Source: Muribaculaceae bacterium (lineage in GTDB: Bacteria; Bacteroidota; Bacteroidia; Bacteroidales; Muribaculaceae). From it: DNA of 38,865 nt. The DNA lies in NCBI GenBank assembly GCA_017451225.1, contig JAFSPZ010000062.1, forward strand, positions 1-38,865, written 5' to 3'. A program made the translations under genes and the position numbers. Shown in pieces: positions 6,037-23,561 of the stretch. Below the pieces are notes generated by a model. That model searched no databases. It was not told the DNA's origin and saw nothing but the letters and a program-made list of their open reading frames with translations. The stretch's first letter is position 1. Each line of letters starts with the position of its first letter.

Positions 6037-6108
6037 GGTCGCTTGGATGAGTGGTTTAGTCACCGGTCTGCAAAACCGGGCACAGCGGTTCGAGTCCGCT
6101 AGCGACCT
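6037..6108 (+). tRNA. tRNA-Cys (anticodon GCA)
   Basis: The 72-nt cloverleaf is complete. The acceptor stem is GGTCGCT/AGCGACC, the anticodon stem CCGGT/ACCGG holds loop CTGCAAA (anticodon GCA), and the T stem is AGCGG/CCGCT around TTCGAGT. Discriminator base T73 agrees with cysteine identity. CCA is not encoded. Confidence 0.95.
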
Positions 6109-6112
6109 CAGC

Positions 6113-6150
6113 AAAAAAGCATCTCATTACGAGATGCTTTTTTTGTTTTT
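6113..6150 (+). terminator. Terminator after tRNA-Cys
   Basis: AAAAGCATCTC (6115-6125) pairs with GAGATGCTTTT (6131-6141) around a 5-base loop, followed by a long T run. It starts five bases after the tRNA. Confidence 0.88.
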
Positions 6151-6439
6151 GCTAAAATGCTGTTAATGTCATATTGTTATTATGCGCGCCCAAATATGAA
6201 TAATTTCTCAAAAATATTCTGTTTGTGTTGAAAAAATACCAATAAATTATTTTATTTTTAGATTTCTTTTTATTAATTTTGTGTCGATTTTTATAAACTA
6301 TTATTTTAGTTTCTTGTAATAAATACTTAAGCCGTGATAATACACTATGCATTACTTTAAATTACAATCTATTAGCGTGATATTTAAAGCAAAATACTAA
6401 TTATATTAACAAAAATTCATTAACAATCTAAACAGATGC
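6151..6439. other. AT-rich leader between tRNA-Cys terminator and susC-like gene
   Basis: This 289-base stretch has no convincing gene. A weak 66-codon minus-strand frame rich in Lys, Asn and Ile has no family resemblance. The stretch contains one weak -7-like motif (6274-6281) and would give the SusC-like gene a leader of about 150 bases. I recognised no riboswitch or operator. Confidence 0.5.
6274..6281 (+). promoter_or_regulatory. Weak candidate -7 element for the SusCD operon
   Basis: TAATTTTG matches TAnnTTTG. It lacks the GCAC extension seen at other promoters here and has only TTTA near the -33 position. If used, the leader is about 150 bases. Its weakness is compatible with activator-dependent expression, but this is inference. 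Confidence 0.3.
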
Positions 6440-9400
6440 ATGATGAGAAACTTTAAATTAATGTCATTGCGACTTCTATTCTTGCTGTCGGTGATGACCA
6501 TTTGGTCTTCATTGACCGCACAACCTATTATGGTTGCGCCTCTTGCTGAAGCCAGTGGTGGTGATAAGGTTGCCGCCGCACCGCAATCAACAGGCAAGAT
6601 TGTAGTCACTGGACGTGTTACCGACAAGAACGGTGAGCCGTTGCCTGGCGCATCGGTTACTGCAGGTGACCAAGGTACCATTACAGACATTGATGGTAAC
6701 TATAGCATTTCGCTTAAAAGTCCAGCCACATTGTCTTATCAATTTGTGGGTTATTCAACCCAAGAGATCAAGATTAGCGGTTCTTGCACTCGCAACATTG
6801 TCTTAGATGAGGATGAAGTTCTTCTGAATGAGATGGTTGTTGTAGGCTATGCTACCCAAAAGCGTATCAATCTTACAGGTGCAGTGAGTACAGTTGATGT
6901 GGCTAAACAATTAGAGGCACGCCCTATTACTGACATTGCTCGCGGTCTGCAAGGTTCTGCTCCTGGTTTGACTGTACGCACTGCGACAGGAGAACTTGGT
7001 ACCGATCCAACCATGAAGATTCGTGGTATAATAGGTTCGGTTAATGGTAGCTCAAGTCCTCTTATTCTTGTTGATAACGTTGAGTGTAACAGCCTTCAGA
7101 ACATCAATCCTGATGATGTGGAGAGCATTTCGGTACTAAAGGATGCTGCATCAGCATCAATTTATGGTGTTAAAGCAGCCTTTGGTGTTGTACTAATCAC
7201 AACTAAGCAAGCCAAGAAAGGCGAAAAAGTGAAAATCACCTATACCGACAACTTCTCATGGCGTCGTCCCACTGTAACCCCTGAAGTTGTTAAAACCTAC
7301 GAAGGAGCCGAGATGTCTTGGGCTGCTGGATTACGTCAGAATCCTAATCTCTCGGAGCAAGTTAATTCATGCTATCTAACATGGAATTTAGAGTCTATAG
7401 AACGCATGAAAGAATGGGATCGTGTTTATGGCGGACTTAATCTTAGCGATGAGCTAGTTTTAGGCCGTGACTTTGAAATCATGGATGGTAAGTTGTATTT
7501 CTATCGTGGTTTTGATGCTTCGGACATGTTTATGAAGAAAAACACCTTCCAGCAGACACATAACCTTAATATCTCGGGTTCGGTTAGCAACACTTCATAT
7601 ACCGTAGGCCTTGGCTATTTGGGACAAGATGGTATTATGAAGGTGAATACCGATAGCTACAAACGCTATAATGTGTCGTTCGGAACCAATTCTACGTTGA
7701 ACAAATACATAGACATCCGCACTAAACTGCTCTATACTCACTATAAACTTGAAGACCCATATTACTTTGGTCCCTCAAGTTATTATGATGAGTGGTATTA
7801 CCTGTATCGCTGGCCACAGATAATGCCTTATGGTACTTATCAGGGCATTCCTTTCCGTAATTCAGTTACTGAGATTCAGCAAGCCAACCGTAATGTTAAG
7901 TCCAATAACTATATGCGCATCACTCTTGGTGCAACAGCTCATATTGTAGAAGGACTTGATTTTGAGGCTGATTATACATTCACTCATGTAAACCGATATG
8001 TCCGCACCAATGGTGGTCAGGCTGAGGGCTGGAACTTCTGGGGTGGCTCAGGCTTGCGTAATGAGGTTTGGACTTTGACATCTCATAACAAAGTTATAAA
8101 TCAAACACAAAATAGTGATTTCCATGTTTTCAATGGACTGTTCCGCTATAAAAACACATTTAAGGAAGACCATGAATTTGGTGCGCTTTTAGGTGTGAAT
8201 GTTGAGCATTACACTGAATATGGCAACACTGCCGAGCGTCGTGACCTTTTGTTGATTGACCACACCGAGTTGCCGTTAGCAACTGGTGAGCAGTACTCCA
8301 ACAGTTATCATGACCATGAGTCTCGTCTTGGTTTCTTTGCACGCCTCAATTATGCATATAAGAATCGCTATTTGCTTGAGCTTAATGGCCGTTATGACGG
8401 TTCTTCAAAGTTCCCAAGTGACAAGCTATGGGGCTTCTTCCCCTCAATGTCGGCTGGATGGGTAATCAGCGAAGAGAGTTTCATGGAAAGCTTGAAACCA
8501 ACGTTGAGTTTATGGAAGATAAGAGGTTCATGGGGTCAGATTGGTAATCAGGATGTGGGTCAATACCGCTTCTTGCCATTGCTTAGTTCGAGCACATATA
8601 ACTGGATTATAAACGATACGAAAGTTATGTCGTTTGGGCTGCCAACAGCCATTAAGGATGGTTTCACTTGGGAAACTATCACAACAACCGACATTGGTAC
8701 CGACATCCGCTTGTTCAGCAATCGTTTGGGCATTAGCTTTGATTGGTTCAAACGTGTGACCAGCGACATGATTACCGATGGAGAGGCTTTGCCATCAACA
8801 TTTGGTCAAACTGCACCCAAAGAGAACTTTGGCGAGCTCACAACGAAAGGATGGGAAATATCTCTTGATTTCCATCATCATTTCAACTTTGGTCTGGGCC
8901 TGAATATCACAGCTTACTTAAGTGATGCAAAGACCAAATACACTAAAATTCCATCGGCCAACCGTAATATAAACGATGTTTATGAAGGCAAGGAATATGG
9001 CGAGATTTGGGGTTATGAAACCGACCGTCTATTCCAATATGATGACTTTGATGTTGATCCAGCTGGCAGATATGTACTTAAGGATGGCATTCCTTCTCAA
9101 AGTTATTTCGAGACAGATGGATGGTTCTTCTTTGGCCCTGGTGATGTGAAGTATAAAGACCTTAATGGTGATGGCGTGATTACCCCTGGCAACAGCACAG
9201 TTGAAAACCATGGCGACTTGAAGCGCATTGGTAATAGCTGCCCTCGCTATGAATATGGTATTCGTCTAGACATGGATTATAAGGGCATTGACTTTGGTAT
9301 TTTCTTCCAGGGTGTAGGCAAACGTGATTATTGGGGCAGCGGTTCTATCGTTATTCCTGGATTCAACTATCTTGAGGCATGGTACACTCACCAGCTTGAT

Positions 9401-9748
9401 TATTGGACTCCAGAGCATACCGATGCCTTCTATCCTCGCTTGACTAATAACGGCCAGTCAAACAATGCTCGCAACTTCTTGCGTCAATCTCGTTATCTTC
9501 TTAACATGGCTTATTGCCGTCTCAAGAATTTGACTGTTGGATATTCATTCCCCGATAATTGGATGCGTAAGATTCACTTGCAGAAACTTCGTCTCTATGT
9601 ATCACTTGAGAACCTCTTTGAATTTGATCACATGCACGATATGCCAATTGATCCTGAGACCCAGTACCGCACTGGTGATGGTGACTATTTAGGACGCTCT
9701 TATCCTTATTCAAGGACTGCTTCATTTGGTGTTCAAGTTACATTCTAA
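6440..9748 (+). CDS. SusC/RagA-family TonB-linked outer membrane transporter
   Basis: A 1102-residue outer membrane beta-barrel receptor. After a signal peptide (about 1-28), residues 53-122 form a carboxypeptidase-regulatory-like domain (VVTGRVTDKNGEPLPGASV). A TonB-box-like stretch (LLNEMVVVGYATQ, about 128-140) follows, then the plug with the SusC signature SVLKDAASASIYG (231-243) and the barrel, ending in the aromatic motif ASFGVQVTF. SusC proteins import oligomers too large for porins, driven by TonB-ExbBD, with a SusD lid. No N-terminal STN signalling domain is present, so sensing through an anti-sigma factor is unlikely. It is the first gene of a seven-gene operon, 20 bases upstream of the SusD partner. 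Two in-frame ATGs are adjacent (6440 and 6443). Confidence 0.95.
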   Translation: MMRNFKLMSLRLLFLLSVMTIWSSLTAQPIMVAPLAEASGGDKVAAAPQSTGKIVVTGRVTDKNGEPLPGASVTAGDQGTITDIDGNYSISLKSPATLSYQFVGYSTQEIKISGSCTRNIVLDEDEVLLNEMVVVGYATQKRINLTGAVSTVDVAKQLEARPITDIARGLQGSAPGLTVRTATGELGTDPTMKIRGIIGSVNGSSSPLILVDNVECNSLQNINPDDVESISVLKDAASASIYGVKAAFGVVLITTKQAKKGEKVKITYTDNFSWRRPTVTPEVVKTYEGAEMSWAAGLRQNPNLSEQVNSCYLTWNLESIERMKEWDRVYGGLNLSDELVLGRDFEIMDGKLYFYRGFDASDMFMKKNTFQQTHNLNISGSVSNTSYTVGLGYLGQDGIMKVNTDSYKRYNVSFGTNSTLNKYIDIRTKLLYTHYKLEDPYYFGPSSYYDEWYYLYRWPQIMPYGTYQGIPFRNSVTEIQQANRNVKSNNYMRITLGATAHIVEGLDFEADYTFTHVNRYVRTNGGQAEGWNFWGGSGLRNEVWTLTSHNKVINQTQNSDFHVFNGLFRYKNTFKEDHEFGALLGVNVEHYTEYGNTAERRDLLLIDHTELPLATGEQYSNSYHDHESRLGFFARLNYAYKNRYLLELNGRYDGSSKFPSDKLWGFFPSMSAGWVISEESFMESLKPTLSLWKIRGSWGQIGNQDVGQYRFLPLLSSSTYNWIINDTKVMSFGLPTAIKDGFTWETITTTDIGTDIRLFSNRLGISFDWFKRVTSDMITDGEALPSTFGQTAPKENFGELTTKGWEISLDFHHHFNFGLGLNITAYLSDAKTKYTKIPSANRNINDVYEGKEYGEIWGYETDRLFQYDDFDVDPAGRYVLKDGIPSQSYFETDGWFFFGPGDVKYKDLNGDGVITPGNSTVENHGDLKRIGNSCPRYEYGIRLDMDYKGIDFGIFFQGVGKRDYWGSGSIVIPGFNYLEAWYTHQLDYWTPEHTDAFYPRLTNNGQSNNARNFLRQSRYLLNMAYCRLKNLTVGYSFPDNWMRKIHLQKLRLYVSLENLFEFDHMHDMPIDPETQYRTGDGDYLGRSYPYSRTASFGVQVTF

Positions 9749-9768
9749 CCCATTAAAGACAGAAAATC

Positions 9769-11502
9769 ATGAAACGATATAAATTATTATCAATACTTTC
9801 GGTAGTTCTTTTATTGTTGTGTTCGTGCAACGACTATATTGAGCTCTCACCTTATGACCAGATTCAAGATACTGAATATTGGCAAAATGAAGAGCAAATA
9901 AGAATCTACAGCTACAGTTTCTATCCTGCCTATTTTGTGGGATATGGAGCTACTGGATTGATTGGTGGCAGCAAGTTTGGTAACGGTGACACCTTCAACG
10001 ATGATATTGCATGGCGCACTCAGGGTGAGTTCACCCCTATTCGTGTGCCTGATACCGACAGTGGTTGGGATTTTAGTTATGTGCGCAAAGCAAATTATAT
10101 GCTGGAGAAAGTTCAAACAGTTCCAAACCTCAGTGAAGAAGCTTTGAAACACTGGACTGGCGTTTCTCGATTGCTTCGTGGAATGGAATACAGTGACCTC
10201 ACATTCCTCTATGGTGATGTCCCATTCTATGATCACAGGCTTGGTTCTACAGAGTATGATGAGCTTTATAAAGACCGTGACGACCGCACCTATGTAGACC
10301 AGAAAATAATGGAAGACTTTGAGTATGCAATTGCCAACATACGCACTAATGATGGCGAACTCATGATTAACCGCTATGTTGCTGCAGCTTTAGTATCTCG
10401 CTTGGCTCTGCGTGAGGGTACATTCCTGAAATATCATAATATTGATGCAGAATTGGGTAACAGGATGATAGACTTGTCGCGTCGTGCCTCACTTATCGTT
10501 ATGGAGAGTGGAAAATTCAGTATCACTGGCGATTATGGCAAGCTCTTTACAAGCGATGACCTTGCAGGAAATCCCGAAATTATCATGTATCGCAAATATG
10601 TTGATGGAGTGCTTACCCATTGTACACTTACTTACAATAATGCCGAGGCACAGACTGGTGCCAATAAAGCATTGCTTGACAGCTATCTTAACAGCGATGG
10701 TAAGCCTGTATATGCAGTAAATCCTTCATTCTGTCCCAAGACTGCTGAAGAATTCTTCCAAGGCCGCGATCCACGCATGAACTTGACATTCCGTGACAAG
10801 TACTACATTCGTGGTGAGGACTGTTCTCCATTCAATTATTCGACATCGGGTTACTCGATGCACAAGTTTATGAATGATGCCGACACAGCTAGCACTGACC
10901 TTAAATTCCGCAATGCCAACAATGTGACCGATGCTCCTTGTTTGCGTTATGCTGAGGTTCTGCTCAACTATGCCGAGGCATGCTATGAACTTGGAACACT
11001 AACTCAGGCTGATCTTGACAGGTCAATTAATCTGCTGCGCGCACGAGCAGGTGTCAATATGCCTCCATTACAGACTCTTGGCGGTCAACCAGGTGTGAAT
11101 GGCGTAGTATATGATGACCCACGTCGTGATCCAAGTGTTCCTTCATTGTTGTGGGAAATCCGTCGCGAGCGTCGCGTTGAGATGGCATTTGAGGGCTTGC
11201 GATATAATGACCTGAAACGTTGGAAAAAGCTGGAGTATATGTGCAATGACTATAACCCCGACATCAAATATGGTGCCTATATAGTTTATGCCGATTATCC
11301 AAAAGCCAACAAGACCGAGGTGGTTCTTGAGAACAGTGATGCTAGTGAAGGCTACATTTTGTGTAATACAGGAACTGCGCGTCAGGCCCCAAAAGATTAT
11401 AATTATGTGCGTCCAGTTCCAAAAGATCAAATCACACTCTATGAGAATAACGGCTATAAGCTGCATCAAACCAAAGAGTGGGTTGGAACAGGATTAGAAT
11501 AA
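9769..11502 (+). CDS. SusD/RagB-family nutrient-binding lipoprotein
   Basis: A 577-residue outer membrane lipoprotein. The signal peptide ends LLLLCSC with C20 as the probable lipidated residue, followed by the typical SusD opening NDYIELSPYDQIQDTEYWQ. The helical TPR-like core follows, including the family motif APCLRYAEVLLNYAEACYELG and, near the C-terminus, WEIRRERRVEMAFEGLRYNDLKRW. SusD forms a lid on SusC and binds the ligand at the cell surface. The ligand is not readable from this sequence. The downstream amidase and GHL10 genes suggest a peptidoglycan-derived ligand, by inference. Confidence 0.95.
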   Translation: MKRYKLLSILSVVLLLLCSCNDYIELSPYDQIQDTEYWQNEEQIRIYSYSFYPAYFVGYGATGLIGGSKFGNGDTFNDDIAWRTQGEFTPIRVPDTDSGWDFSYVRKANYMLEKVQTVPNLSEEALKHWTGVSRLLRGMEYSDLTFLYGDVPFYDHRLGSTEYDELYKDRDDRTYVDQKIMEDFEYAIANIRTNDGELMINRYVAAALVSRLALREGTFLKYHNIDAELGNRMIDLSRRASLIVMESGKFSITGDYGKLFTSDDLAGNPEIIMYRKYVDGVLTHCTLTYNNAEAQTGANKALLDSYLNSDGKPVYAVNPSFCPKTAEEFFQGRDPRMNLTFRDKYYIRGEDCSPFNYSTSGYSMHKFMNDADTASTDLKFRNANNVTDAPCLRYAEVLLNYAEACYELGTLTQADLDRSINLLRARAGVNMPPLQTLGGQPGVNGVVYDDPRRDPSVPSLLWEIRRERRVEMAFEGLRYNDLKRWKKLEYMCNDYNPDIKYGAYIVYADYPKANKTEVVLENSDASEGYILCNTGTARQAPKDYNYVRPVPKDQITLYENNGYKLHQTKEWVGTGLE

Positions 11503-11549
11503 TCATAATAAAGAATTAGAAGTTAATAACAATATACATTAGATATATT

Positions 11550-13238
11550 ATGAAACACAAACTTTTATACGGACTTCTCATGATTGTGGGGCTCTTTGCA
11601 CTCAACTCTTGTAGTGATGACCCTATTGTAGAGAATCCCTCGGGCGAGACTTTCATATACCGCCTGAGTATTGCTAATGGAGGTTTGACAGGAACTGATG
11701 CTATTATTGGCACCATCAACGAGGAGTCAAAGACAATCACCTTTGACGCTCCTGCCGAAACCGATATTGAAGCTATAAAATTTGCTGCAAAACTGTCATT
11801 AGGCGCCCACCTCGATAAGGAGACCTATGATTTCAGCCAAAGTAATACTGTTCCTGTAACAGTTGTCAATGGTGAGAATGTGGGAACTTATCAGGTTACA
11901 ATTAACTTTGCCGAACCTAAGGAGACTCCGATGATTACTGCTGTGAGAGTTAAGCTTCCAGATGGAACCGAAAAGAACGCTTATGTGAGTGAGATTGACA
12001 AGAGTATCTATATGGGTGCTGAAGAATTTGAAAGTGTAGAAATACTTTCTATCTCATGCTTACCCAAGCGCACCGTGACAACTCTCACCACGGCTAACAA
12101 CAATATTGTTCAAAAAGACAATCCAGGCTCTATAATGCTAGACTTTATGGGTATTACTAACGAATATCGCTTGCTGTTTGCTGCAATTCCAGTGTTTGGT
12201 GCCGACTTCAACAATGGAACAGCCTATACTTTCTGCAACTCAACCGGTAATCTCTTTGGCGATTTTGTTGGTGAGAATACTCGTAGCGCCGACTTCGATG
12301 GCAACAACTTGCTTATCGTGTCTCGCGAGGGTGGTCTTAATGTAAGGGTTATACCTTTTAACGAAATCAAGGGTGGCAATCCTGGAGGAACCAGTTTGAG
12401 CCTTGATGGAGTTGAAATGGGTACATTCCTCGTAAGTTCTGGTCGCATAAGCCATGGTCACTACTACGTGAGCAACTTGTCGACAAGTGTGGGTGAGGAC
12501 CAACCACTCAAACTTTATTACTGGGATAACATCAATTCAAATCCTCAAGTACTGCTTGAGTTCTTGGGCGCTGCCAATGGCCCTGAAGGTGAAGTTGACT
12601 TATCAAAACTTAGGTTTGGTGACAATTTGAACGTTTGTCTCGATGAGAGTGGTAACGGTTTCATCTACTTTGTGACTCAAGATGGTACTGCCGTTCTGCG
12701 ATTCAACGTGACAGGCTTCACTAATTTGGAGAATCCAACTTATATAGTACCACCTACTACATTATCTTACTATGCTGCTGTTAACCAGGTTGATGGCAAG
12801 GATAATGAATATATTGTGACAAGTGTTCAAGCTGGTATTTACTTGACTGACGAGAACCTTAACCCAATCACATTGATAGAACCTGAGAAGATTCCGGTAC
12901 GCTGCACCGATGCACGCGTTATTACTTTCGACAGCGAACGTTATCTTATCACAACATCTGCCCGTTGGGGTGCATGGTCAAAAGATGACCCGCAGGCATT
13001 CTATGTTTATGATCTTAGCAACGGTGCAACAACAGCACTTGCTATGATGAACCTCGTTGATTGTGATGGAATGGCTCAGCCTCTGTTTACATTCACAATT
13101 GGTGGCGACTCACCTGCATCCTATGGTTCAGCACCGTCGGCAAGCACTGGATGGGGTGTGGTCAATGGTATGCTTCGCCTTATGACAGCTGCTCCAAAGG
13201 CGGGATTTGCAATATTTGAATTCCCTGAAAGAGAATAA
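11550..13238 (+). CDS. Surface lipoprotein, DUF5018/DUF4623-like, in SusE/F position
   Basis: A 562-residue lipoprotein. The lipobox ALNSC (C21) is followed by SDDP, an acidic stretch like the surface lipoprotein export signals described in Bacteroidetes. Residues about 33-125 look like a DUF5018-type Ig-like domain (FIYRLSIANG ... YQVTINFAEP). The remaining ~430 residues are beta-rich with propeller-like phrases (SADFDGNNLLIVSREGG, GNGFIYFVTQDGTAVLRFNV) and resemble DUF4623-type proteins. Its position right after SusCD is where surface glycan-binding proteins (SusE/F, SGBP) usually lie, so it may capture the ligand. The domain names are from memory and not verified. Confidence 0.68.
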   Translation: MKHKLLYGLLMIVGLFALNSCSDDPIVENPSGETFIYRLSIANGGLTGTDAIIGTINEESKTITFDAPAETDIEAIKFAAKLSLGAHLDKETYDFSQSNTVPVTVVNGENVGTYQVTINFAEPKETPMITAVRVKLPDGTEKNAYVSEIDKSIYMGAEEFESVEILSISCLPKRTVTTLTTANNNIVQKDNPGSIMLDFMGITNEYRLLFAAIPVFGADFNNGTAYTFCNSTGNLFGDFVGENTRSADFDGNNLLIVSREGGLNVRVIPFNEIKGGNPGGTSLSLDGVEMGTFLVSSGRISHGHYYVSNLSTSVGEDQPLKLYYWDNINSNPQVLLEFLGAANGPEGEVDLSKLRFGDNLNVCLDESGNGFIYFVTQDGTAVLRFNVTGFTNLENPTYIVPPTTLSYYAAVNQVDGKDNEYIVTSVQAGIYLTDENLNPITLIEPEKIPVRCTDARVITFDSERYLITTSARWGAWSKDDPQAFYVYDLSNGATTALAMMNLVDCDGMAQPLFTFTIGGDSPASYGSAPSASTGWGVVNGMLRLMTAAPKAGFAIFEFPERE

Positions 13239-13259
13239 CTCAATCTATATTATTAACCA

Positions 13260-13302
13260 AACTTTGATGTTGGGGGAAGTACTATTCCCCCACATCAAAG
13301 TT
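13260..13302 (+). promoter_or_regulatory. Strong intercistronic hairpin between lipoprotein and propeller-dockerin genes
   Basis: The left arm 13260-13278 pairs with the right arm 13285-13302, giving 18 base pairs with a single bulged T (13270) around loop GTACTA. There is no T run after it on the plus strand, and the next start codon follows 16 bases later. It therefore looks more like an mRNA-stabilising or processing element than a terminator, separating the SusCD-lipoprotein part of the message from the enzyme part. Confidence 0.6.
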
Positions 13303-13318
13303 CTTAAAAAACTTAATT

Positions 13319-14899
13319 ATGAAACTTAAAACATTACTTTTCGTAGTTTTGGCAAGCGTTGCAACTATGGCTGGCGCACGTGAGGCCAACGTGTTTGCTT
13401 CGGGACTTATGGCTTTTGAGTGCGACAACGGTACTAATACCGACTTCATGATCTGCTACACCCTTAATGCTCCAGCAACTAGTGTTACCATCAACATCTA
13501 TCAAGGCGAGACACTTGTTAAGACAATTGAAAGCTCGGGGCTTGCTAAAGGTTATAATGAGCAAGCAATCAATCTGGCTGGGCTCAGTGGTGAATATACT
13601 TGGAGCGTGAAAGCCACTGGTGAGGCTTGGAGTGAAGGTGAAACTGCAACCATGGTTATTGACGAGAACAATACTGCCACACTTGAAGGCTATATGAGTC
13701 CTCGTGGAATCACCATCGATAAAGACACTGAAAGTGAGTTTTACGGACGAATTTATGTTACTGAGACACGCAATGATGTGAGAAATGTTGGTATCTATGT
13801 CTATGATGCTGCTTTCAACGATATTACCGGTCAGGGAAATACTGCTTATAACGGCAACGTTGCTTGGGGCGCATCAAGTGGCTGTACACGCATCTTTCTC
13901 AACAAGGACGGCAAGATATACTTAAGCGACTGGAGTGATGGACACCCTGGAGTGTGGCGCGCTGATGCTTTTGATTTGAATGCTGACTTCGTTCCCGTGT
14001 TTGGTGGCACACCCAATGGCGATGGTCTCCGTTTCAATGAAGATGAAGTTGCAATAGCTGGTTCTATCCCTAGTTGCTGGGTTGAAGGCACAGGAGAGAA
14101 CACTGTTCTCTACACCTTCGATGAGGACTATATCAATACAAACGGCAATGTTCAGGGTGTTTACCAGTACAATATTGGCAATCTTGAGCAGCCTTGGGCT
14201 GATGCTCCAAGTGCTATTATCTATGACAATGCTGAGAATCTTCATCAGAATGGCAATAGCATGATTATACCTCAAAATGGTGGCTGGTGGATTTCACAGA
14301 CTCGCTGGACTGATGGTGCTGCTATTCCTTCTCTTGTTTACGTAAAGAACAACGAAGTACTCTTCAATTCTGGTGCCGTTGATCCTGAAATGATTCTTCG
14401 TAGTTATTCTTCAGCTATCTGTCTCTTTGACGAAGGAACCAAGTTGGCTGTCTCTAGCTATAACAACATTAAGATTTTTGAAGTAACCTTTGATGACGCA
14501 GGTGTTCCCTCTCTTTCCGAGTTGATGAACATTGATCCAGCACTTGGACAAAATTGCTACAGCATTGCAATTGACGCTGCTCACAACATGTACCTCGCTG
14601 TTGATCGTGCTAATGCAAGCAGCACTGGCAATGTGGGTGTGTTTGCACTTCCTGTACCTGAGAACGTATGCGAGACTCCTGCTCCATCTGCTCAGAAGCT
14701 ATTTGTAGGAGGTGGGACAGTTGTCGCTGGTGACGTTGACGGTGATGGAGTTGCTACTGCAGGTGATATAACTGCCCTATACAACTATTTGCTTAATAGT
14801 GATAGCAGCGCCATTGTAAATGGTGATCAAGATGGCGATGGTACCATTACTGCTGGTGATATTACACTTGTCTACAACATACTGCTTGGCAGCAATTAA
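13319..14899 (+). CDS. Secreted propeller-like protein with C-terminal dockerin-like repeats
   Basis: A 526-residue protein with a signal peptide cut near MAGA/RE. Residues about 25-110 look like a FlgD-type Ig-like domain (TSVTINIYQGETLVKTI ... YTWSVKATG). Residues 115-450 are beta-propeller-like with SPRGITIDKD, GRIYVTE, KIYLSDWSDGHPGVW and IPQNGGWWISQTRW. Residues 469-526 carry two calcium-loop repeats, DVDGDGVATAGD and DQDGDGTITAGD, each followed by an aliphatic helix ending NYLL or NILL, exactly like type I dockerins. The body is paralogous to the C-terminal half of the amidase two genes downstream. No catalytic motif was seen, so a binding or scaffold role is more likely than an enzyme. 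Partners are unknown. Confidence 0.72.
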   Translation: MKLKTLLFVVLASVATMAGAREANVFASGLMAFECDNGTNTDFMICYTLNAPATSVTINIYQGETLVKTIESSGLAKGYNEQAINLAGLSGEYTWSVKATGEAWSEGETATMVIDENNTATLEGYMSPRGITIDKDTESEFYGRIYVTETRNDVRNVGIYVYDAAFNDITGQGNTAYNGNVAWGASSGCTRIFLNKDGKIYLSDWSDGHPGVWRADAFDLNADFVPVFGGTPNGDGLRFNEDEVAIAGSIPSCWVEGTGENTVLYTFDEDYINTNGNVQGVYQYNIGNLEQPWADAPSAIIYDNAENLHQNGNSMIIPQNGGWWISQTRWTDGAAIPSLVYVKNNEVLFNSGAVDPEMILRSYSSAICLFDEGTKLAVSSYNNIKIFEVTFDDAGVPSLSELMNIDPALGQNCYSIAIDAAHNMYLAVDRANASSTGNVGVFALPVPENVCETPAPSAQKLFVGGGTVVAGDVDGDGVATAGDITALYNYLLNSDSSAIVNGDQDGDGTITAGDITLVYNILLGSN

Positions 14900-14925
14900 T
14901 TAATTGTGTTTTCACTTCAAGAATT

Positions 14926-15627
14926 ATGAAAATAAAAAACATAATTTTATCATACCTGCTGTGCATGGGTTTTGCGGCCAGTGCACAGCAGGTGGAAGTG
15001 GTAAATATGACGCGTGTCAATACCGACACTCAAGCATATCATCCCACTTTCACAGCCGATGGTAATAGTATACTTACTTCGACCGAGGACTATATTGGTT
15101 TGAAAGAAACGAATTTGATAACAGGCAAGACTACCGTGCTTTCTACCGAGCCACGTGCCGGCATGAACGCAAGGCTTCGCGGGCTGACAGGAAAAAGTGT
15201 TAATAATTTTGAGAACCTAAAAATTAACATCGTTGATGGCGATAAAGTGACAACAATAGCTCCAAATGGAGAGAATGAACGCTACTTGTGGCCCACTTTC
15301 TCTCCTGATGGGTTAAAGATTGCTTACACTGTTTCAGGAAAAGGGTCTTACGTTTATGACACTGCAACACGAAGTACAACTTTTTTGGGTAAATTCCGTG
15401 CCCCACAATGGATGGGAAACGACTATGTTGTTGCAATGAACGATAGTGATGACGGCTATAAAATTACAGGTTCTACTGTGATGGTCTGCGCCGCAGATGG
15501 CTCATTTGCACAACAAGTGACGCCCGACGATATGATTGCCATGTTCCCTAGCGCTACTACTAATAAGATCGCTTTCCATACCCTCGAGGGCGAGATTTAC
15601 ATAATGGACATTACTATAACCAAATAA
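14926..15627 (+). CDS. Small secreted PD40/TolB-like propeller protein
   Basis: A 233-residue exported protein (signal peptide about 1-20, ending ASAQ). It has PD40-type repeats: AYHPTFTADGNSILTSTED, LWPTFSPDGLKIAYTVSGKGSYVYD, and a final blade GEIYIMDITITK. Such WD40-like repeats occur in TolB and in peptidase-linked propellers. At this length only part of a six- or seven-bladed propeller could be formed, so it may be a small propeller or need a partner. It lies 26 bases after the dockerin protein and 12 bases before the amidase, so it is in the same operon. Role unknown; periplasmic binding of cell-wall material would fit the context. Confidence 0.65.
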   Translation: MKIKNIILSYLLCMGFAASAQQVEVVNMTRVNTDTQAYHPTFTADGNSILTSTEDYIGLKETNLITGKTTVLSTEPRAGMNARLRGLTGKSVNNFENLKINIVDGDKVTTIAPNGENERYLWPTFSPDGLKIAYTVSGKGSYVYDTATRSTTFLGKFRAPQWMGNDYVVAMNDSDDGYKITGSTVMVCAADGSFAQQVTPDDMIAMFPSATTNKIAFHTLEGEIYIMDITITK

Positions 15628-15639
15628 CATTGTAAAAGC

Positions 15640-18240
15640 ATGAAAAAGTATATATTTCTTCTCACTGCCTTTGCAATGATTGCAGGCAGTAATGCATTTG
15701 CCAATGATCTGACTGGCAAGAAGATCTATGTGAATCCTGGGCATGGTGGCTATGATCCCACTAATGACCGCAACGTGCCCACCATCCCATTTCCTGCGGG
15801 TGACCACAACGGTTTTTATGAGTCAACTTGCAACCTTGTGAAAGGACTTGAGCTTCGTGACTTGCTTGAATCATCAGGTGCTACCGTAATGATGTCTCGA
15901 ACCCAGAATCGTGATGAGGATGATAAGGTGCTTACCGAGATTTCGGCCGAAGCTAATGCCTTTGGTGCCGATGCGTTTGTCTCGGTACATAGCAATGCAC
16001 TGGGTGCAAACTCTGGCACAAACTATCTTTTGACACTCTATAAAGGTAATGAGAATGCAGCTGCTGGCGTGCCTTGGAAACCCGAAGATAAAGAGATGGC
16101 GACAAGATGTTGGCCGTTCCTCTATGAGAACAACACTTCTATCTGGACAGCCGGCTCACCCTCTAACCCTATCGTGCGCGATGACTATCATTTCTTGGGC
16201 TTCTATCTGGGTGTGATGCGTACTCTCACCGTACCAGGCTTCTTGATTGAAGGTTCATTCCATGACTATGAGCCAGAGACTCACCGATTGCTCAATCATG
16301 ACTATGATCACATTAATGCAATCAACACTTATCGCTTCTTTCTTGACTATTATGGTGCCGACGCTCCTGCAACAGGCGAGATTCTTGGGTCGGTTAAGGA
16401 TAGCCAGCGTAAGATGAGTGCTCCTGAGTTCAACAATTTCGTCAAAAAGTCGCATGATCAATATCAGCCACTTAATGGTGCTACTGTAACACTGATGAAT
16501 GCTAGCGGCACAACTTTGGACACTTACACTACCGACGATTGGTATAACGGTATCTATGTGTTCCGCAACCTGGCTCCTGGCAGCTATAAGGTGCGCATGG
16601 AGATGCCTGGCTACATCACTCAAGAGAAAGATGTTACAGTTGAGGCTGCTAAGACAACAAGTTTCTACACTCTGCTCGAGGATCCTACTTACGAACCTCC
16701 TGCATTAGTTACAGCTATGCCCAACATCTATGCTTCGGAGCTTTCGGCTGGTGAGAACGGAGAGGGCCATTATGTTCTCTCATTCACGCTTAATGCCGAT
16801 GCTACCGAGGTGCAAGTGACAGTTTATAATGAGATTGGAGATCCAATCGTCATTGACGCTGGAGCACTTCCTCGTGGACGTAACAACGTACTTGTGAAGA
16901 TGGATGATGTGAAAGGGAACGCTGTTAAATGGGAAGTAAAAGCTACAGGCGAGGCCAACACTCTTACTGCCCCTGCAATCAGTTGTGATCGTGAGGCATC
17001 ACAGCTCAGTTTCAAGCAGGCTCGTGGTATTGCTGTGGACAATAGCATGGAGAGTGAATTCTTTGGGCGTGTATATATCACTGAAGGAAGTGGTGGTACT
17101 GCTGGAGACCGCGTAACTCAGAACGGCCTTTATGTGCTCGATGCCAACCTCAGTGATGTTACTGGTCAAGGCAGCAACAGCTACGCTGGCAATGTGGTAT
17201 GGTCAAGTTCATCAAGCCCAATGCGTCCCTCTGTTGGTGAGGATGGAACTATCTACCTTGCTGACTGGAGCGATGCGCATTCTGGTATTTGGAAAGCTAA
17301 CCCAGCCAATCTCAGTGGCGAATTTATACCAGTCTTTGGTGGTACGCGTGATGGTGATGGCCTCTTCTGGAATGGCGACACCAAGATTGCAGGTTCTGTA
17401 TCATCATGTTATGTTACGGGCACAGGCGAGAACACAGTGCTCTACACTACTGATGAGGACTACCTGGGCACTTATATGAACAGTGGTAGTGTGCTGCCAA
17501 GGGTTGCTTTATTGCAATATAACATTGGTAACGCTGAAACTCCATGGACCGAAGCTCCATCGGCTGTATTGTTTGACAATCCAATTAATGATAACAATGG
17601 CTATGCAATCCTCAGTAACGCCAACTGTGTGGTTATTCCACAAAATGGAGGTGTATGGGTATCGCAATATCGCTGGAGCGATGGTGCTGCTCTTCCTTCG
17701 TTGTCTTATATCAAGAACAATGAGGCATTGTTTAAGTCTGGTAGTGTTGACGCTTCGCTTATCAGCACTTCTCAACGCGGTGCTCTGGCTTTGAACTACG
17801 ATGGTACTATGATTGCCGTGGGCGCTGGTGATGAAACTCGCGTCTTTAATGTGACCTTCAATGGTGACGTTCCATCAATCACTCCATTGTATATCATCGA
17901 CCATGGTCTTGGTGGAGATAGCTATGGTCTGGCATTTGACTATGCTAATAATATCTATCTTGCCAATAATTCAGATGGCATTGCCGAGTTTACATTGCCA
18001 ACAGCCGACAATAGCCGCATCACTGTTGCGCCAACATCGCAATATTTGAAAGGCTCGGCAGGAGTTTATGGCGATGTTGACGGTGATGGTATAGTTTCGT
18101 CGGTTGATATTACAGCAATTTACAACTATTTGCTTAATGGCGATGAAACATACTTGCTCACTAGTGATGTTGACAAAGATGGAGTTGTGTCATCGGTTGA
18201 TATCACTATAATTTATAATATATTACTTGGTAACAAATAA
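15640..18240 (+). CDS. N-acetylmuramoyl-L-alanine amidase (Amidase_3) fused to propeller and dockerin-like tail
   Basis: An 866-residue secreted multidomain enzyme. A signal peptide (1-21) precedes an Amidase_3 catalytic domain (about 25-240). Its zinc ligands are H35 (NPGHGG), E61 (FYEST) and H117 (SVHSN), with catalytic E204 (FLIEGSFHD), all present. Residues about 245-345 form a carboxypeptidase-regulatory-like domain (GATVTLMNASG ... GSYKVRMEMPGYITQEKDVTV). Residues 360-805 repeat the Ig-like plus propeller module of the neighbouring 526-residue protein. Residues 808-866 are two dockerin-like repeats, DVDGDGIVSSVD and DVDKDGVVSSVD. The enzyme should cleave the bond between MurNAc and L-Ala of peptidoglycan. 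Ordinary cell-division amidases lack these accessory modules and are not in SusCD loci, so a nutritional role is plausible. Confidence 0.88.
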   Translation: MKKYIFLLTAFAMIAGSNAFANDLTGKKIYVNPGHGGYDPTNDRNVPTIPFPAGDHNGFYESTCNLVKGLELRDLLESSGATVMMSRTQNRDEDDKVLTEISAEANAFGADAFVSVHSNALGANSGTNYLLTLYKGNENAAAGVPWKPEDKEMATRCWPFLYENNTSIWTAGSPSNPIVRDDYHFLGFYLGVMRTLTVPGFLIEGSFHDYEPETHRLLNHDYDHINAINTYRFFLDYYGADAPATGEILGSVKDSQRKMSAPEFNNFVKKSHDQYQPLNGATVTLMNASGTTLDTYTTDDWYNGIYVFRNLAPGSYKVRMEMPGYITQEKDVTVEAAKTTSFYTLLEDPTYEPPALVTAMPNIYASELSAGENGEGHYVLSFTLNADATEVQVTVYNEIGDPIVIDAGALPRGRNNVLVKMDDVKGNAVKWEVKATGEANTLTAPAISCDREASQLSFKQARGIAVDNSMESEFFGRVYITEGSGGTAGDRVTQNGLYVLDANLSDVTGQGSNSYAGNVVWSSSSSPMRPSVGEDGTIYLADWSDAHSGIWKANPANLSGEFIPVFGGTRDGDGLFWNGDTKIAGSVSSCYVTGTGENTVLYTTDEDYLGTYMNSGSVLPRVALLQYNIGNAETPWTEAPSAVLFDNPINDNNGYAILSNANCVVIPQNGGVWVSQYRWSDGAALPSLSYIKNNEALFKSGSVDASLISTSQRGALALNYDGTMIAVGAGDETRVFNVTFNGDVPSITPLYIIDHGLGGDSYGLAFDYANNIYLANNSDGIAEFTLPTADNSRITVAPTSQYLKGSAGVYGDVDGDGIVSSVDITAIYNYLLNGDETYLLTSDVDKDGVVSSVDITIIYNILLGNK

Positions 18241-18259
18241 TTCTTAACCTACTATAATT

Positions 18260-18313
18260 AAAGGGGTAATACTCTTAAATTTTGTCACGTCATGAGATTT
18301 TGCCCCTTTTTTT
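18260..18313 (+). terminator. Possible terminator or attenuator before the GHL10 gene
   Basis: AAAGGGGTAA (18260-18269) can pair with TTGCCCCTTT (18300-18309) with one G-U pair, followed by T residues, across a 30-base loop. It lies 20 bases after the amidase stop and 15 bases before the GHL10 start, so it may reduce read-through rather than separate unrelated genes. Confidence 0.5.
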
Positions 18314-18328
18314 AAAAAAAGACAATAG

Positions 18329-19846
18329 ATGATAAAGAAATTATTATTCTTGCTTATAATTGCGATTGGAATGGTATCATGCGGAGGAGATGAGCCAAGT
18401 CCTACTCCAGGCCCCAATCCTAACCCAAATCCTGATCCAGGCACTGAAACTACACTCAAACCTGAGGATGTGACCATGCCGCGTAAGGAAATAAGGGCAG
18501 TATGGCTTTGCACGGTGCGTGACATAGACTGGCCCCGCAATAAAAGCAATCCCGAGGTTCAGAAGCAGGAATTCATTGAATACCTTGACTTGTTCAAGCA
18601 GTACAATGTAAATACCGTTATCATGCAGGTTAGGCCATGTGCCGATGCGTTTTATAACTCATCACTTGAGCCATGGAGCCAGTATCTTACTGGTACACAA
18701 GGCCAAGATCCCGGATGGGATGTGATGAATTTCATGATTGACGAGACTCACAAACGCGGAATGGAGTTTCATGCTTGGATGAATCCTTATCGCATATGTG
18801 AGGATTACACCAAGTTCAATCCTGCTGCTAATGCTATTTCCAACACACATCCCGAATGGGTAATGCAGTATGGAAAGTTGTGGATTTTAAATCCTGGTCT
18901 TCCCGAGGTTCGTCAACATTTGTGCAATGTAGTTGCCGACTTGCTAGACAAATATGATGTAGATGGTATACACTTTGATGACTACTTCTACCCTTATCCT
19001 AATGGTTCCTCTTTGCCCGATATGGAGGACTACAAGGCCTATGGCGTTCCAGCGGGCTTCACAAGTATTGCCAACTGGCGTCGCGATAACGTGAACAAAG
19101 CCATTGAGATGGTGCACAACACAATCCTTGCTCACAAGCCAGGAGCTGTGTTCTCGATTAGCCCCTTCTGTGTGTGGCGTAACATCAGTGCCGATCCTCG
19201 TGGCTCGCAGACCTATACCGACATCACTAATTATGACAGCCTCTATGCCGATATCCTTAAGTGGTGTGAAGAAAACTGGATAGACCTTGTGGTTCCACAG
19301 CTCTACCCTACTACTCAGAACACCAATGCAAACTTTATAACCTTGGTTAAATGGTGGCCTGAGCATGTGGGTAATTGTCCTTTGGCTATTGGATTGGAAC
19401 TTGACCTTTATAGCTCGAATCATAGTCAGGCTGTTTATCAAACAACTACCGAGCTTGAACAAGAGTTCTTCTATGCTCGCCGTCAAGAGAAGGTGCAAGG
19501 TACTTTCCTGTTTTGCGCAAAGGTTTTTAAAGAGAACAAGATTAACCTTCTGGGCAAGCTTGCACAGATGTATCCCGAACCTTCGGTTATACCATTCTTT
19601 GGCAGGTCAACTGCAGCTGAGCCCTCAGCTTTGACACAGCTTAAGGCCGACGGCAGGAAGCTCACGTGGGAGAACAAAGGTAAAGGTATGCGCTATGTTG
19701 TTTACCGCATTGAATCTAAGGTGGCTCACACATTGGATATTGTTGACACCAATTTTTATGAGGTAGATGGAACTGGCTATTTTGCTGTTTCGGTTCTTAA
19801 TGCGGACAATACCGAGAGTCAAATCGCAATAGTTAAGGTTGACTAA
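18329..19846 (+). CDS. GHL10 (DUF187/DigH-type) glycosidase, surface-type lipoprotein
   Basis: A 505-residue lipoprotein. The signal peptide ends GMVSC (C18), followed by GGDEP and a proline/asparagine-rich linker (residues 23-40). Residues 50-400 are the glycosyl hydrolase-like 10 barrel: EIRAVWLCTVRDIDWP, VNTVIMQVRPCADAFY, EFHAWMNPYRI, the conserved acidic motif VDGIHFDDYFYPYP (211-224) and DLVVPQLYPTTQ. A fibronectin-III-like domain occupies the last ~85 residues. The characterised member, E. coli DigH (YddW), cleaves peptidoglycan glycan strands from which stem peptides have been removed. It follows an amidase gene that would make exactly such denuded glycans. Substrate assignment is by homology and context only. 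Confidence 0.87.
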   Translation: MIKKLLFLLIIAIGMVSCGGDEPSPTPGPNPNPNPDPGTETTLKPEDVTMPRKEIRAVWLCTVRDIDWPRNKSNPEVQKQEFIEYLDLFKQYNVNTVIMQVRPCADAFYNSSLEPWSQYLTGTQGQDPGWDVMNFMIDETHKRGMEFHAWMNPYRICEDYTKFNPAANAISNTHPEWVMQYGKLWILNPGLPEVRQHLCNVVADLLDKYDVDGIHFDDYFYPYPNGSSLPDMEDYKAYGVPAGFTSIANWRRDNVNKAIEMVHNTILAHKPGAVFSISPFCVWRNISADPRGSQTYTDITNYDSLYADILKWCEENWIDLVVPQLYPTTQNTNANFITLVKWWPEHVGNCPLAIGLELDLYSSNHSQAVYQTTTELEQEFFYARRQEKVQGTFLFCAKVFKENKINLLGKLAQMYPEPSVIPFFGRSTAAEPSALTQLKADGRKLTWENKGKGMRYVVYRIESKVAHTLDIVDTNFYEVDGTGYFAVSVLNADNTESQIAIVKVD

Positions 19847-19934: not shown

Positions 19935-20525
19935 TTACATTGTGAGCACGATATTGTTTTCAACGGCCAGTCGCCGCATGTTAAGTATTGCATATCGCAT
20001 GCGTCCTAGGGCGGTGTTGATGCTTACATTGGTGCGGTCGGCAATCTCCTTGAAGCTCATGTTCTTGTAGTAGCGCATGAGCAGCACTTCTCGCTGGTTG
20101 GCCGGCAGAGCAGTGACGAGGCGTCGCACGTCGCTGTGAATTTGATCAACAATTAGGTTGTCTTCGACAGTTGCTTCGCTGAGTTCTTTTCGATTTAGAA
20201 TGTCAACCTCGGTAGAGTCGCTTGACTGTAGATTCTCGGACTTTTCTTGCCTGTAGAAATCAATGATAAGATTGTGTGCAATGCGTGTTATCCATGCGGC
20301 AAAATGTCCATTCTCGACATACCTTCCTTGCTTGATTGTCATTATCGCCTTGACAAATGTTTCTTGGAAAATATCGTTGGCAAGATCTTCATCTTTTACT
20401 GAGTGAAAGATATAATTAAAGATGCGGTTTTTGTGGCGCTCAATCAGCGCATCAAAAGCCTCATTCTTACCTTCGACATACTTTACGATGAGTTTATCAT
20501 CGCTTACGTCTGCAAATTTTGTCAT
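19935..20525 (-). CDS. Sigma-70 family (ECF-type) RNA polymerase sigma factor
   Basis: A 196-residue sigma factor. Region 2 spans about residues 20-95 (FDALIERHKNRIFNYIF, DIFQETFVKA, FAAWITRIAHNLIIDFYR), then a linker. Region 4 spans about 130-185 with LPANQREVLLMRYYKNMSFKEIAD and the recognition helix TNVSINTALGRMRYAI. No FecR-type anti-sigma factor or SusC receptor with an STN domain is next to it, so it does not look like a PUL-specific ECF system. It could be one of the stand-alone sigma factors conserved across Bacteroidales. It has its own consensus promoter and converges on the SusCD operon. Confidence 0.92.
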   Translation of the reverse strand: MTKFADVSDDKLIVKYVEGKNEAFDALIERHKNRIFNYIFHSVKDEDLANDIFQETFVKAIMTIKQGRYVENGHFAAWITRIAHNLIIDFYRQEKSENLQSSDSTEVDILNRKELSEATVEDNLIVDQIHSDVRRLVTALPANQREVLLMRYYKNMSFKEIADRTNVSINTALGRMRYAILNMRRLAVENNIVLTM

Positions 20526-20727: not shown

Positions 20728-21039
20728 TTATTTTTTGCGTCTAGAATAAAGCCTAAGTAGAATTCCTATTGCTTTTGCTCCAAGGAAGAGGTAGTCGGCT
20801 TTTTTGAGTCCAGTGATAGTGTTGTTGCTGAACAAAAGCCCTCTTATACCGTTTTGAGATACATTGTCGCGCGCGTTGTTGAACTGGTAAGATAGATTTG
20901 CACGATTCACCTCACGCAACACCAACGACTTTGCACGCCTCATTTTGAGTTCATCCATTGTTAACCCTTTCCACTCTTTTTGTTGAGTTGATGTTGTTGT
21001 AGGTACGGCTGTCGTTGGAAGTGTGTTATTTGCACTCAT
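20728..21039 (-). CDS. Conserved-looking small protein of the YtxH/holin operon, unknown function
   Basis: A 103-residue protein with a Thr/Pro-rich, probably disordered N-terminus (1-25), a charged helix (ELKMRRAKSLVLREVNRANLSYQF), and a hydrophobic segment near the C-terminus (ADYLFLGAKAIGILLRLYS) ending in basic residues RRKK. I do not recognise a family. It is the last gene of a four-gene minus-strand operon, 10 bases after the holin-like gene, and the hydrophobic tail suggests the envelope. No terminator was identified directly downstream. Confidence 0.6.
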   Translation of the reverse strand: MSANNTLPTTAVPTTTSTQQKEWKGLTMDELKMRRAKSLVLREVNRANLSYQFNNARDNVSQNGIRGLLFSNNTITGLKKADYLFLGAKAIGILLRLYSRRKK

Positions 21040-22159: not shown

Positions 22160-22816
22160 TTATTCATCAAGCTTAAAACCAAGAGGTTTGAGTACGGCTT
22201 TAGGCAAGCGTGTGCGCTTTGTTGTCGCTTTTCTCTTGGGTCGCTCGGTCGTTACGATGCGCTTGTTTGTAAGATAGTTCTCGCTGGTAACTACAGTTTT
22301 GCCTGTGTTGCGCTCATACTCAGTAACATCTTTCCCGATAAGGAAGAAATCTCCGTTTTGATAACGGAAAAGATATTTTGTTGTGGGTTGTGTCCAGCTC
22401 CCTGCACTTGCAAATAATTCTAATGTGATTTCGAGCACCCCTTTCTTGGTTATATCAAGAGCAGGAGTGATACTGATAAATTCGTCCTCGCGCGCTGGAA
22501 TCACATTGTCATATTGCATGTAGAGGTTGAAGTCGCCATCTTTATCTCCCCAATAAATGGCAAGAATAGGCTGGTTGAAATTGTAAACATAGCCGTCATC
22601 GCGAGTTCTCATCTTCTCTTTGTTGCAAGGCGTGGCGATGATAGCGAGATCGGCGATGCCATCACCATTGAGGTCGCCTGTCTTGAAAATTGATTCCCAA
22701 TCGTTTGGCACAACATCGGCAGCGCTTTTACCATTTGATTTAAGCCCTTGAGCCAAAGATGATTGTGGCATTATTGCCAAAACAGCTATAATAATAGTAA
22801 ATATAGTTTTCATCAT
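22160..22816 (-). CDS. Secreted protein with FG-GAP-like calcium loop, unknown function
   Basis: A 218-residue exported protein (signal peptide about 1-22, ending SLAQ). Near the N-terminus of the mature part is GDLNGDGIADLAII, with D48, N50, D52 and D56 in the spacing of an FG-GAP/VCBS calcium-binding loop. The rest is beta-rich (PILAIYWGDKDGDFNLYMQYDNV, TTKYLFRYQNGDFFLIGKDV), and the C-terminus is strongly basic before LGFKLDE. It resembles proteins that store a value of 'fraction/energy'-type hypothetical families, and I cannot name it further. Last gene of a four-gene operon of small secreted proteins; 33 bases after the gene upstream. Confidence 0.62.
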   Translation of the reverse strand: MMKTIFTIIIAVLAIMPQSSLAQGLKSNGKSAADVVPNDWESIFKTGDLNGDGIADLAIIATPCNKEKMRTRDDGYVYNFNQPILAIYWGDKDGDFNLYMQYDNVIPAREDEFISITPALDITKKGVLEITLELFASAGSWTQPTTKYLFRYQNGDFFLIGKDVTEYERNTGKTVVTSENYLTNKRIVTTERPKRKATTKRTRLPKAVLKPLGFKLDE

Positions 22817-22849
22817 AATATGAAATGCTTTAAATATAGCAATTAGAAA

Positions 22850-23536: not shown

Positions 23537-23561
23537 TATTCTTGTTATTTAAAGATAATGA

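Follow-up and report, generated by a model that had tools for sequence, protein, structure and literature searches.

A seven-gene operon on a 38,865-nucleotide contig of a Muribaculaceae bacterium (GenBank assembly GCA_017451225.1, contig JAFSPZ010000062.1; the whole contig is referred to here as the window) joins a SusC/SusD pair to two hydrolases, and judged on its gene content and neighbourhood it is probably a Sus-like system that acts on peptidoglycan. Within the source genome G000 (2.28 Mb in 70 contigs, 85.5% complete) the window is contig C31. The seven open reading frames (ORFs) all lie on the + strand between positions 6440 and 19846, with intergenic gaps of 20, 47, 80, 26, 12 and 88 bp, in line with a preliminary description of this DNA as a run of closely spaced genes of one orientation. 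They encode a SusC-type TonB-dependent transporter (gene 1, 6440-9748, 1102 aa; TIGR04056, 872 bits against a cut-off of 368), a SusD-type protein predicted to be a surface lipoprotein (gene 2, 9769-11502, 577 aa; PF07980, 2e-36), a DUF4623 lipoprotein (gene 3, 11550-13238, 562 aa; PF15416, 5e-67, solved relative 4ftd), a secreted dockerin protein with an Ig-like region (gene 4, 13319-14899, 526 aa; C-terminal Dockerin_1, 2e-9, the Ig-like match being below cut-off), a small PD40 (TolB-like) protein (gene 5, 14926-15627, 233 aa; PF07676, 1e-6, its profile matching TolB chains at 1e-6), an Amidase_3 N-acetylmuramoyl-L-alanine amidase (gene 6, 15640-18240, 866 aa; PF01520, 55 versus 27 bits) and a GHL10 lipoprotein, a predicted peptidoglycan strand cleaver (gene 7, 18329-19846, 505 aa; PF02638, 8e-73, 245.6 versus 27.9 bits). 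The SusC and SusD genes are adjacent, 20 bp apart, the arrangement that marks a Sus-like system or polysaccharide utilisation locus (PUL), and from the close spacing of the genes the Amidase_3 and GHL10 proteins would be its cognate enzymes. Pfam and TIGRFAM profiles recover the earlier calls of SusC, SusD, a surface-type lipoprotein (DUF4623), PD40, Amidase_3 and GHL10. Of the 'dockerin-tagged propeller' proposed for gene 4 the dockerin stands and the propeller is at most putative, as no Pfam propeller family matches; the sole hint of one is a weak match of the gene-4 profile to Atg21/Atg18 chains (E 4e-4 and 8e-3).

By profile assignment the amidase and the GHL10 protein are both from families acting on the cell wall. 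The amidase combines the Amidase_3 domain with CarboxypepD_reg, a part shared with gene 4 and a C-terminal Dockerin_1. It had been credited with a full set of catalytic residues, and H35, E61, H117 and E204 are indeed present, and invariant in nine aligned sequences (the window's included); we take the first three to be metal ligands and E204 to be the catalytic glutamate. H35, E61 and H117 align with LytH (7tj4) and Cwp6 (5j72), and E204 aligns with a Cwp6 glutamate only in a second stretch that is non-significant alone (-1.4 bits). The C-terminal two thirds of the amidase are 45% identical to the gene-4 protein, and on this resemblance gene 4 is a paralogue of the amidase C-terminal part; a relationship between the gene-4 protein and DUF4623 was considered and rejected, at a profile comparison probability of 0.84%. 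The GHL10 protein matches the structure of Cwp19 from C. difficile over residues 52-415 (5oq2; E 4e-91, 309 bits), its only solved GHL10 match. We presume DigH of E. coli to be a GHL10 member as well. Passages of the DigH paper describe specificity for peptide-free glycan, and the term 'GHL10' does not occur in its text (PMC12288456). The GHL10 domain of Cwp19 confers, according to passages of its description, lytic transglycosylase activity on peptidoglycan (PMC6016235), so the products of the window GHL10 protein could carry anhydro ends. The window genome carries four GHL10 genes. At L023:8905-17720 (contig C64 of G000) a second GHL10 protein (1128 aa, with a dockerin) is encoded directly upstream of another SusC and a SusD-like gene.

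Among solved structures the window SusD profile matches best NanU (4l7t, 92.9 bits) and, nearly tied, BF1063 (3i4g, 92.1 bits). NanU is described as a sialic-acid binder; the window SusD scores 24.6 bits in the NanU family against a cut-off of 425 and is not a NanU. After the signal peptide the DUF4623 lipoprotein reads Cys-Ser-Asp-Asp and the GHL10 protein Cys-Gly-Gly-Asp-Glu, and these acidic residues resemble the Bacteroidetes lipoprotein export signal, for which passages of PMC5080379 give SDDDD as the proposed B. fragilis consensus, so that surface exposure of both proteins is plausible. The DUF4623 lipoprotein is a candidate surface glycan-binding protein. The amidase, which has a signal peptide, bears one of the two window dockerins; these lie at 14726-14887 and 18067-18228, and the 2.28 Mb genome has 74 Dockerin_1 matches in total. 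A search of this genome for a cohesin scaffold returned only two sub-threshold matches (C63:3981-4745), short of what would define a cellulosome at 85.5% completeness. The type IX secretion system (T9SS) is represented by SprA, with only two T9SS tails over cut-off. In genome G132 a DUF4623-like protein bears a T9SS sorting tail where the window proteins have dockerins, and the amidase has a T9SS tail match below cut-off (24.8 versus 27 bits) at the place of the window dockerin. The dockerins of the window genome may be sorting or attachment tails.

The seven-gene order recurs, as the preliminary description had proposed to establish by a search of other Bacteroidales. Our scan for related loci gave 12, ten in metagenome-assembled genomes (MAGs) and two in Dysgonomonas. 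The ten MAG relatives nearest to the locus comprise nine labelled Muribaculaceae and one Prevotellaceae (RUG228), and a ruminant host (buffalo, yak or deer) is given for eight of them. Window-type loci number 11 when the window is included; all seven genes are found in order in seven of these (in one the contig ends within the GHL10 gene); apart from the window itself, these loci number six and have every gene 69-98% identical to its counterpart there. Two more (L047 and L049, at 39-71% identity to the window) run from SusC through the amidase with no adjacent GHL10 gene, and two end too early for gene content to be judged. The GHL10 gene therefore belongs to the locus as first described in seven of the 11 but is not universal. 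DUF4623 is rare, occurring in 11 of 393 genomes of the order, and given this rarity and the identity of 69-98% in the six other seven-gene loci the clustering is more than chance. A query with the DUF4623 protein matches nine of 101 genomes, namely the window genome and six congeners over full length, one congener as a fragment, and Dysgonomonas sp. 511 (G079, of which G368 is a near relative); the full-length gene is thus present in eight of 101 relatives, seven of them in the window's genus with the window genome counted. A core of SusC, SusD, DUF4623 and GHL10 is shared more widely, by Dysgonomonas sp. 511 and PF1-14 (in both of which DUF4623-GHL10 comes first), G119, G340 and G491, and G132 has the order GHL10-PD40-Amidase_3-DUF4623-like-SusC-SusD.

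Support for peptidoglycan as the substrate comes from the company kept by this SusC/SusD lineage. We ran a SusD profile of eight sequences against 393 genomes of the order, scoring at most three candidates per genome; 35 match at E<=1e-70, in 45 places. Neighbourhoods were taken for 39 places (the remaining six score 240-249 bits), and the SusD tree has 44 rows: these 39, plus three from relatives in the genus and two for second SusD genes. The window falls within a 26-row clade with an SH-aLRT of 97, in a quick tree whose two chosen outgroup rows do not fall together. A marker was counted when NamZ, MurQ, BadF kinase, AmpG, SpoIID, golvesin-amidase, Amidase_3 or GHL10 matched at E<1e-10 within 9 kb of SusD; both limits were chosen by us, and the marker profiles were built from the window, Dysgonomonas and other clade loci. 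By this rule 16 of 26 clade SusD genes have a marker, versus none of 18 outside (p=1.3e-5), and with catabolic markers only the counts are 10 of 26 versus 0 of 18 (p=0.002), both by Fisher tests that ignore relatedness. When the eight profile rows and contigs under 7 kb are left out, 9 of 16 clade members remain positive versus 0 of 16 outside (p=0.0004). Looser peptidoglycan labels, given to 18 rows, require seven changes on the SusD tree versus 14.2 in shuffles, with none of 500 shuffles as low; these labels count G340b, where NamZ lies beyond 9 kb, and G057, where the contig ends before the catalytic part of the amidase, both of which are negative in the strict count. The SusC tree (FastTree, 39 rows) likewise has a 25-row clade that contains all 18 labelled rows. 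An earlier test by tiers, in which G119c counted as a control, gave 13 of 18 versus 1 of 17 (p=6e-5); the tree places G119c inside the clade. The genes for GH9 (glycoside hydrolase family 9), deacetylase, metallophosphatase-PQQ, SSF and FAD-oxidase proteins that are described below were recognised later and are excluded from all counts.

The association reaches beyond the order. At E<=1e-110 the SusD profile matched ten of the 395 genomes searched in the class, six of them outside the order and carrying seven SusD genes. A marker lies within 9 kb of five of these seven, as read by eye and with no control set: both genes in G700 (NamZ, with MurQ near the first) and those in G491, G777 (NamZ) and G752 (BadF kinase and GHL10). 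We give most weight to G491, because there MurQ, the etherase for MurNAc-6-phosphate (MurNAc, N-acetylmuramic acid), names the sugar. The genes of G491 form one run, all on the + strand with gaps of 2-184 bp, in the order NamZ-SusC-SusD-DUF4623-GHL10-metallophosphatase/PQQ-GH9-deacetylase-MurQ-SSF, and their identity to the window is 35% for SusD, 38% for GHL10 and 31% for DUF4623.

Within the order the clade lies near MurNAc-salvage genes in Dysgonomonas sp. 511, where the order is AmpG-like, NamZ, BadF-type kinase, MurQ, golvesin protein, a reverse-strand outer-membrane gene, DUF4623, GHL10, SusC, SusD and ROK kinase, the DUF4623-GHL10-SusC-SusD block lying ~5 kb downstream of the AmpG-NamZ-kinase-MurQ run. 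Here NamZ matches PF07075 at 3e-84 and MurQ matches TIGR00274 at 308 versus 302 bits, the AmpG-like transporter is below cut-off (TIGR00901, 1.7e-28) and the golvesin protein has a weak Amidase_3 match (18 versus 27 bits). The window genome has its own salvage cluster, on contig C44 (locus L062), comprising a golvesin protein cut by the end of the stretch, two glycosyltransferases of family 2, DUF4922, SpoIID, AmpG-like, NamZ, FAD-linked oxidase, DUF5009-like, BadF-type kinase and MurQ; its NamZ is over cut-off, its MurQ scores 317 versus 302 bits, and its BadF-type kinase is 50% identical to the Dysgonomonas counterpart. We take ybbC to be what NamZ is called in Bacillus, and the lytB gene of T. 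forsythia to encode a SpoIID protein. The T. forsythia operon comprises, in passages of PMC5388701, xanthan lyase, two glycosyltransferases, lytB, ampG and ybbC, then murT, murK and murQ. The C44 region holds together the Tannerella-type set of NamZ, AmpG, MurK-like kinase and MurQ, the AmpG-like and kinase matches being below their cut-offs. MurT belongs to the sodium symporter superfamily, according to passages of PMC5790795; no such symporter was recognised among ORFs of >=100 aa in the 20 kb of L062, a stretch cut at both ends, and SSF proteins are encoded near SusCD clade members in G193, G119, G340, G225, G700 and G491. The proposal that a SusCD locus is dedicated to peptidoglycan thus gains support from gene association, in that the clade stands beside NamZ, MurQ, AmpG-like, BadF-type kinase, SpoIID and golvesin-amidase genes in other families and beyond the order, and further from the salvage cluster on another contig of the window genome.

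In the mechanism we propose, the secreted, dockerin-bearing Amidase_3 enzyme would remove stem peptides from MurNAc and the GHL10 lipoprotein would cut the glycan strands; we infer both that the amidase acts before GHL10, which would take the denuded glycan, and that short saccharides are imported. SusD and the DUF4623 lipoprotein would bind the fragments, probably together with the gene-4 and PD40 proteins, and SusC would import them in a TonB-driven step. Periplasmic trimming would fall to NamZ, the golvesin-type amidase and the SpoIID protein, after which an AmpG-like carrier or a symporter would move the products across the inner membrane, and a MurK-like kinase with MurQ would channel the sugar into N-acetylglucosamine-6-phosphate. 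The SusC/SusD clade has members in several families and in no fewer than two orders of the class, and we think it rather probable, if less firmly so, that all of it is a dedicated outer-membrane importer of peptidoglycan fragments, providing the missing outer-membrane step of MurNAc salvage in Bacteroidota. The accessory genes that recur with it (for a DUF4623 binder, GHL10, a metallophosphatase-PQQ protein, and GH9 with deacetylase) would then make DUF4623 a peptidoglycan-fragment-binding family and some GH9 proteins cell-wall enzymes.

Several further genes recur in these neighbourhoods. A fusion of a metallophosphatase with a PQQ propeller is found beside the SusCD clade in five genomes (L132:13884-15731, L131:7022-8878, L098:1893-3752, L103:16983-18836, L059:17740-19692), and possibly serves in removal of phosphate-linked wall polymers. 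GH9 and polysaccharide deacetylase domains stand beside the clade at L096:6487-9000, L098:11015-13588 and L132:15774-18256, fused in two cases and adjacent in one, which suggests GH9 enzymes acting on an amino-sugar glycan. Next to SusCD in G255 and G341, and within the salvage cluster of the window genome, there are genes for FAD-linked oxidase/Fe-S proteins (L100:6078-8978, L107:6325-9156, L062:10606-13392); MurQ also releases D-lactate, so these oxidases could use it. Genes for NAGPA-type phosphodiester glycosidases neighbour SusCD loci of the clade and also ones that fall outside it (L059:338-2812, by Pfam; L114:4686-7163 and L119:12847-15390, by profile matches).

A number of observations weigh against assigning the operon and its clade to peptidoglycan. 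In the C44 cluster the AmpG-like protein is below the curated cut-off (170 versus 350 bits), as are the Amidase_3 match of the golvesin protein (24.6 versus 27 bits) and the BadF-type kinase (23.7 versus 31.5 bits), and this cluster and the SusCD operon are on different contigs of the window genome. Ten of the 26 clade members have no marker within 9 kb, two of them on contigs under 7 kb, and two of the seven SusD genes outside the order (G593 and G820) lack one. The contrast weakens at 12 kb, to 17 of 26 versus 2 of 18 (p=0.0004), or 11 of 26 versus 2 of 18 (p=0.026) with catabolic markers only; the two outside rows that become positive are second SusD genes in the marker-bearing neighbourhoods of clade members. 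Of the loci examined, only those of window type and G132 pair a classical Amidase_3 with GHL10, and in some clade loci there are genes that seem to serve another purpose (GH9 in G290, G432 and G491). The amidase has no T9SS tail match and its surface location is a prediction; indeed the enzymatic steps, surface location, binding and import are all read from gene content and neighbourhood. The imported substrate could moreover be peptides, and the source of the fragments could be the cell's own wall.

Own-wall recapture, in which the system would retrieve peptidoglycan shed by the cell itself and not foreign wall, is in our view unlikely. Genes of the AmpG, MurK and MurQ type generally serve recycling, and the gene data do not tell own wall from foreign; nevertheless capture at the outer membrane together with secreted hydrolases would be better suited to an external polymer, and the locus is accessory, as the full-length DUF4623 gene has so restricted a distribution among the relatives. 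We hold it distinctly improbable that what the SusCD pair takes up is not glycan but the stem peptides that the amidase would set free. RagAB-type SusCD systems import oligopeptides, the amidase would release peptides, and the SusD profile also reaches the SusD homologues 5lx8 and 6z8i (E 5e-13 and 6e-13), but the best solved matches are the sialic-acid binder NanU and, close behind, BF1063, and the genes neighbouring the clade (NamZ, MurQ, BadF-type kinase, SSF symporter) are sugar genes.

It is more doubtful still that the likeness to wall enzymes is misleading and that the target is another glycan, such as a plant, host or fungal aminoglycan. GHL10 is widely distributed, as passages of PMC6016235 state, GH9 and deacetylase occur in three relatives, and the GH89-type gene upstream of the operon (below) is a member of an alpha-N-acetylglucosaminidase family; against this, MurQ and NamZ are found together with SusCD genes in G491 and G700, and the Amidase_3 enzyme retains all four residues. 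Least credible of all, and very nearly to be dismissed, is a chance clustering of a SusCD pair with housekeeping division hydrolases: GHL10 proteins are not rare, given the four genes in the window genome, yet the seven-gene order is kept in seven of 11 window-type loci, the SusCD-DUF4623-GHL10 core recurs in either block order in two Dysgonomonas, G119, G340 and G491, and the clade contrast is strong at 9 kb. A Sus-like system for peptidoglycan therefore remains the reading we prefer.

The surroundings of the operon fit a self-contained unit. A tRNA-Cys gene (6037-6109) is followed by a terminator-like hairpin of 13 pairs and a T-rich tail (6113-6143, + strand) that separates the operon from the upstream genes, and a putative TAnnTTTG element (6274-6281, + strand), presumably the Bacteroidales -7 element, lies within a stretch that aligns in six of seven upstream regions (not in L044). 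As pattern evidence, the hairpin and this element would be compatible with a single promoter ahead of susC. Terminator-like sites in the region are fewer than expected (7 versus 11.3 in shuffles); promoter-like sites (54 versus 34 expected) are scattered across coding sequence on both strands. Neither set was used as evidence, the hairpin after tRNA-Cys aside. An Rfam search of the window returned tRNAs only. We rejected the GH89-type (NAGLU) gene at 2588-4783 as a member of the locus, as a reverse-strand flavodoxin gene, the tRNA-Cys gene and the hairpin intervene; it is present at only three of ten related loci, the contig ending before that point in several. On the downstream side an extracytoplasmic function (ECF) sigma factor gene (19935-20525, - strand) is convergent to the operon, and the next ORF (20728-21039) has no Pfam match. 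A close homologue occupies the same position in three of ten related loci (L042, L044, L045), with a neighbouring ORF that resembles holin-type membrane proteins at a score above cut-off in L045 and under it in L042, and we regard the sigma factor as a syntenic neighbour and probably not a dedicated regulator. No adjacent dedicated regulator (hybrid two-component system, SusR or ECF/anti-sigma pair) was found beside the window operon, in a scan that did not take in every small ORF. In relative L049 genes for an ECF sigma factor (sigma-70 family) and a FecR-type anti-sigma protein (2872-4622) immediately precede SusC, a pairing known from other PULs in passages of PMC6987092. Further downstream, at 22160-24787, four consecutive reverse-strand genes encode proteins 173-228 aa long whose N termini are signal-like; one has FG-GAP repeats, and the other three have no family match over cut-off.

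Growth of T. forsythia on peptidoglycan, and the inner-membrane and cytoplasmic steps of its MurNAc pathway, are treated in the passages searched of PMC7670621, PMC5790795 and PMC5388701, in which SusD, SusC and TonB were not found. The candidate SusCD clade would fill the unexplained outer-membrane step of this known recycling pathway and, since it has cultured members among Dysgonomonas isolates, is open to direct test. DUF4623, not found in the open-licence PMC papers searched, gains a proposed role, and peptidoglycan loci could be flagged among PULs that are as yet unassigned. If the reading is correct, gut Bacteroidales with the locus, many of them from ruminants, would be cell-wall scavengers, with a bearing on rumen microbial turnover and on the muropeptides sensed by hosts. 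No SusCD locus for peptidoglycan appeared among the matches listed from open-licence literature, judged by title and start of abstract with subscription journals outside its scope; the kind of system is thus known, and peptidoglycan as its substrate class is undescribed among those matches.

A close parallel is the ampG-ybbC-murTKQ operon of T. forsythia, as given in the passages cited above: genes of the same kinds, likened by name and not by computed homology, are present on contig C44 of the window genome, where no sodium symporter was recognised, and the window supplies in addition a candidate outer-membrane importer and secreted hydrolases. With Sus-like systems and other PULs the window shares the adjacent SusC and SusD genes, a predicted accessory surface lipoprotein and cognate secreted enzymes; it differs in its predicted substrate, the bacterial cell wall, in that one of its two enzymes is an amidase, and in having no adjacent regulator pair of the kind seen in L049. 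NanO/NanU is likewise a SusCD pair that handles an acidic N-acetylated sugar, and NanU is the top solved match of the window SusD, which nevertheless scores far below the NanU cut-off. Cwp19 and DigH act on the wall of their own cell, whereas the GHL10 protein of the window, for all its similarity to Cwp19, is a lipoprotein encoded in a SusCD operon.

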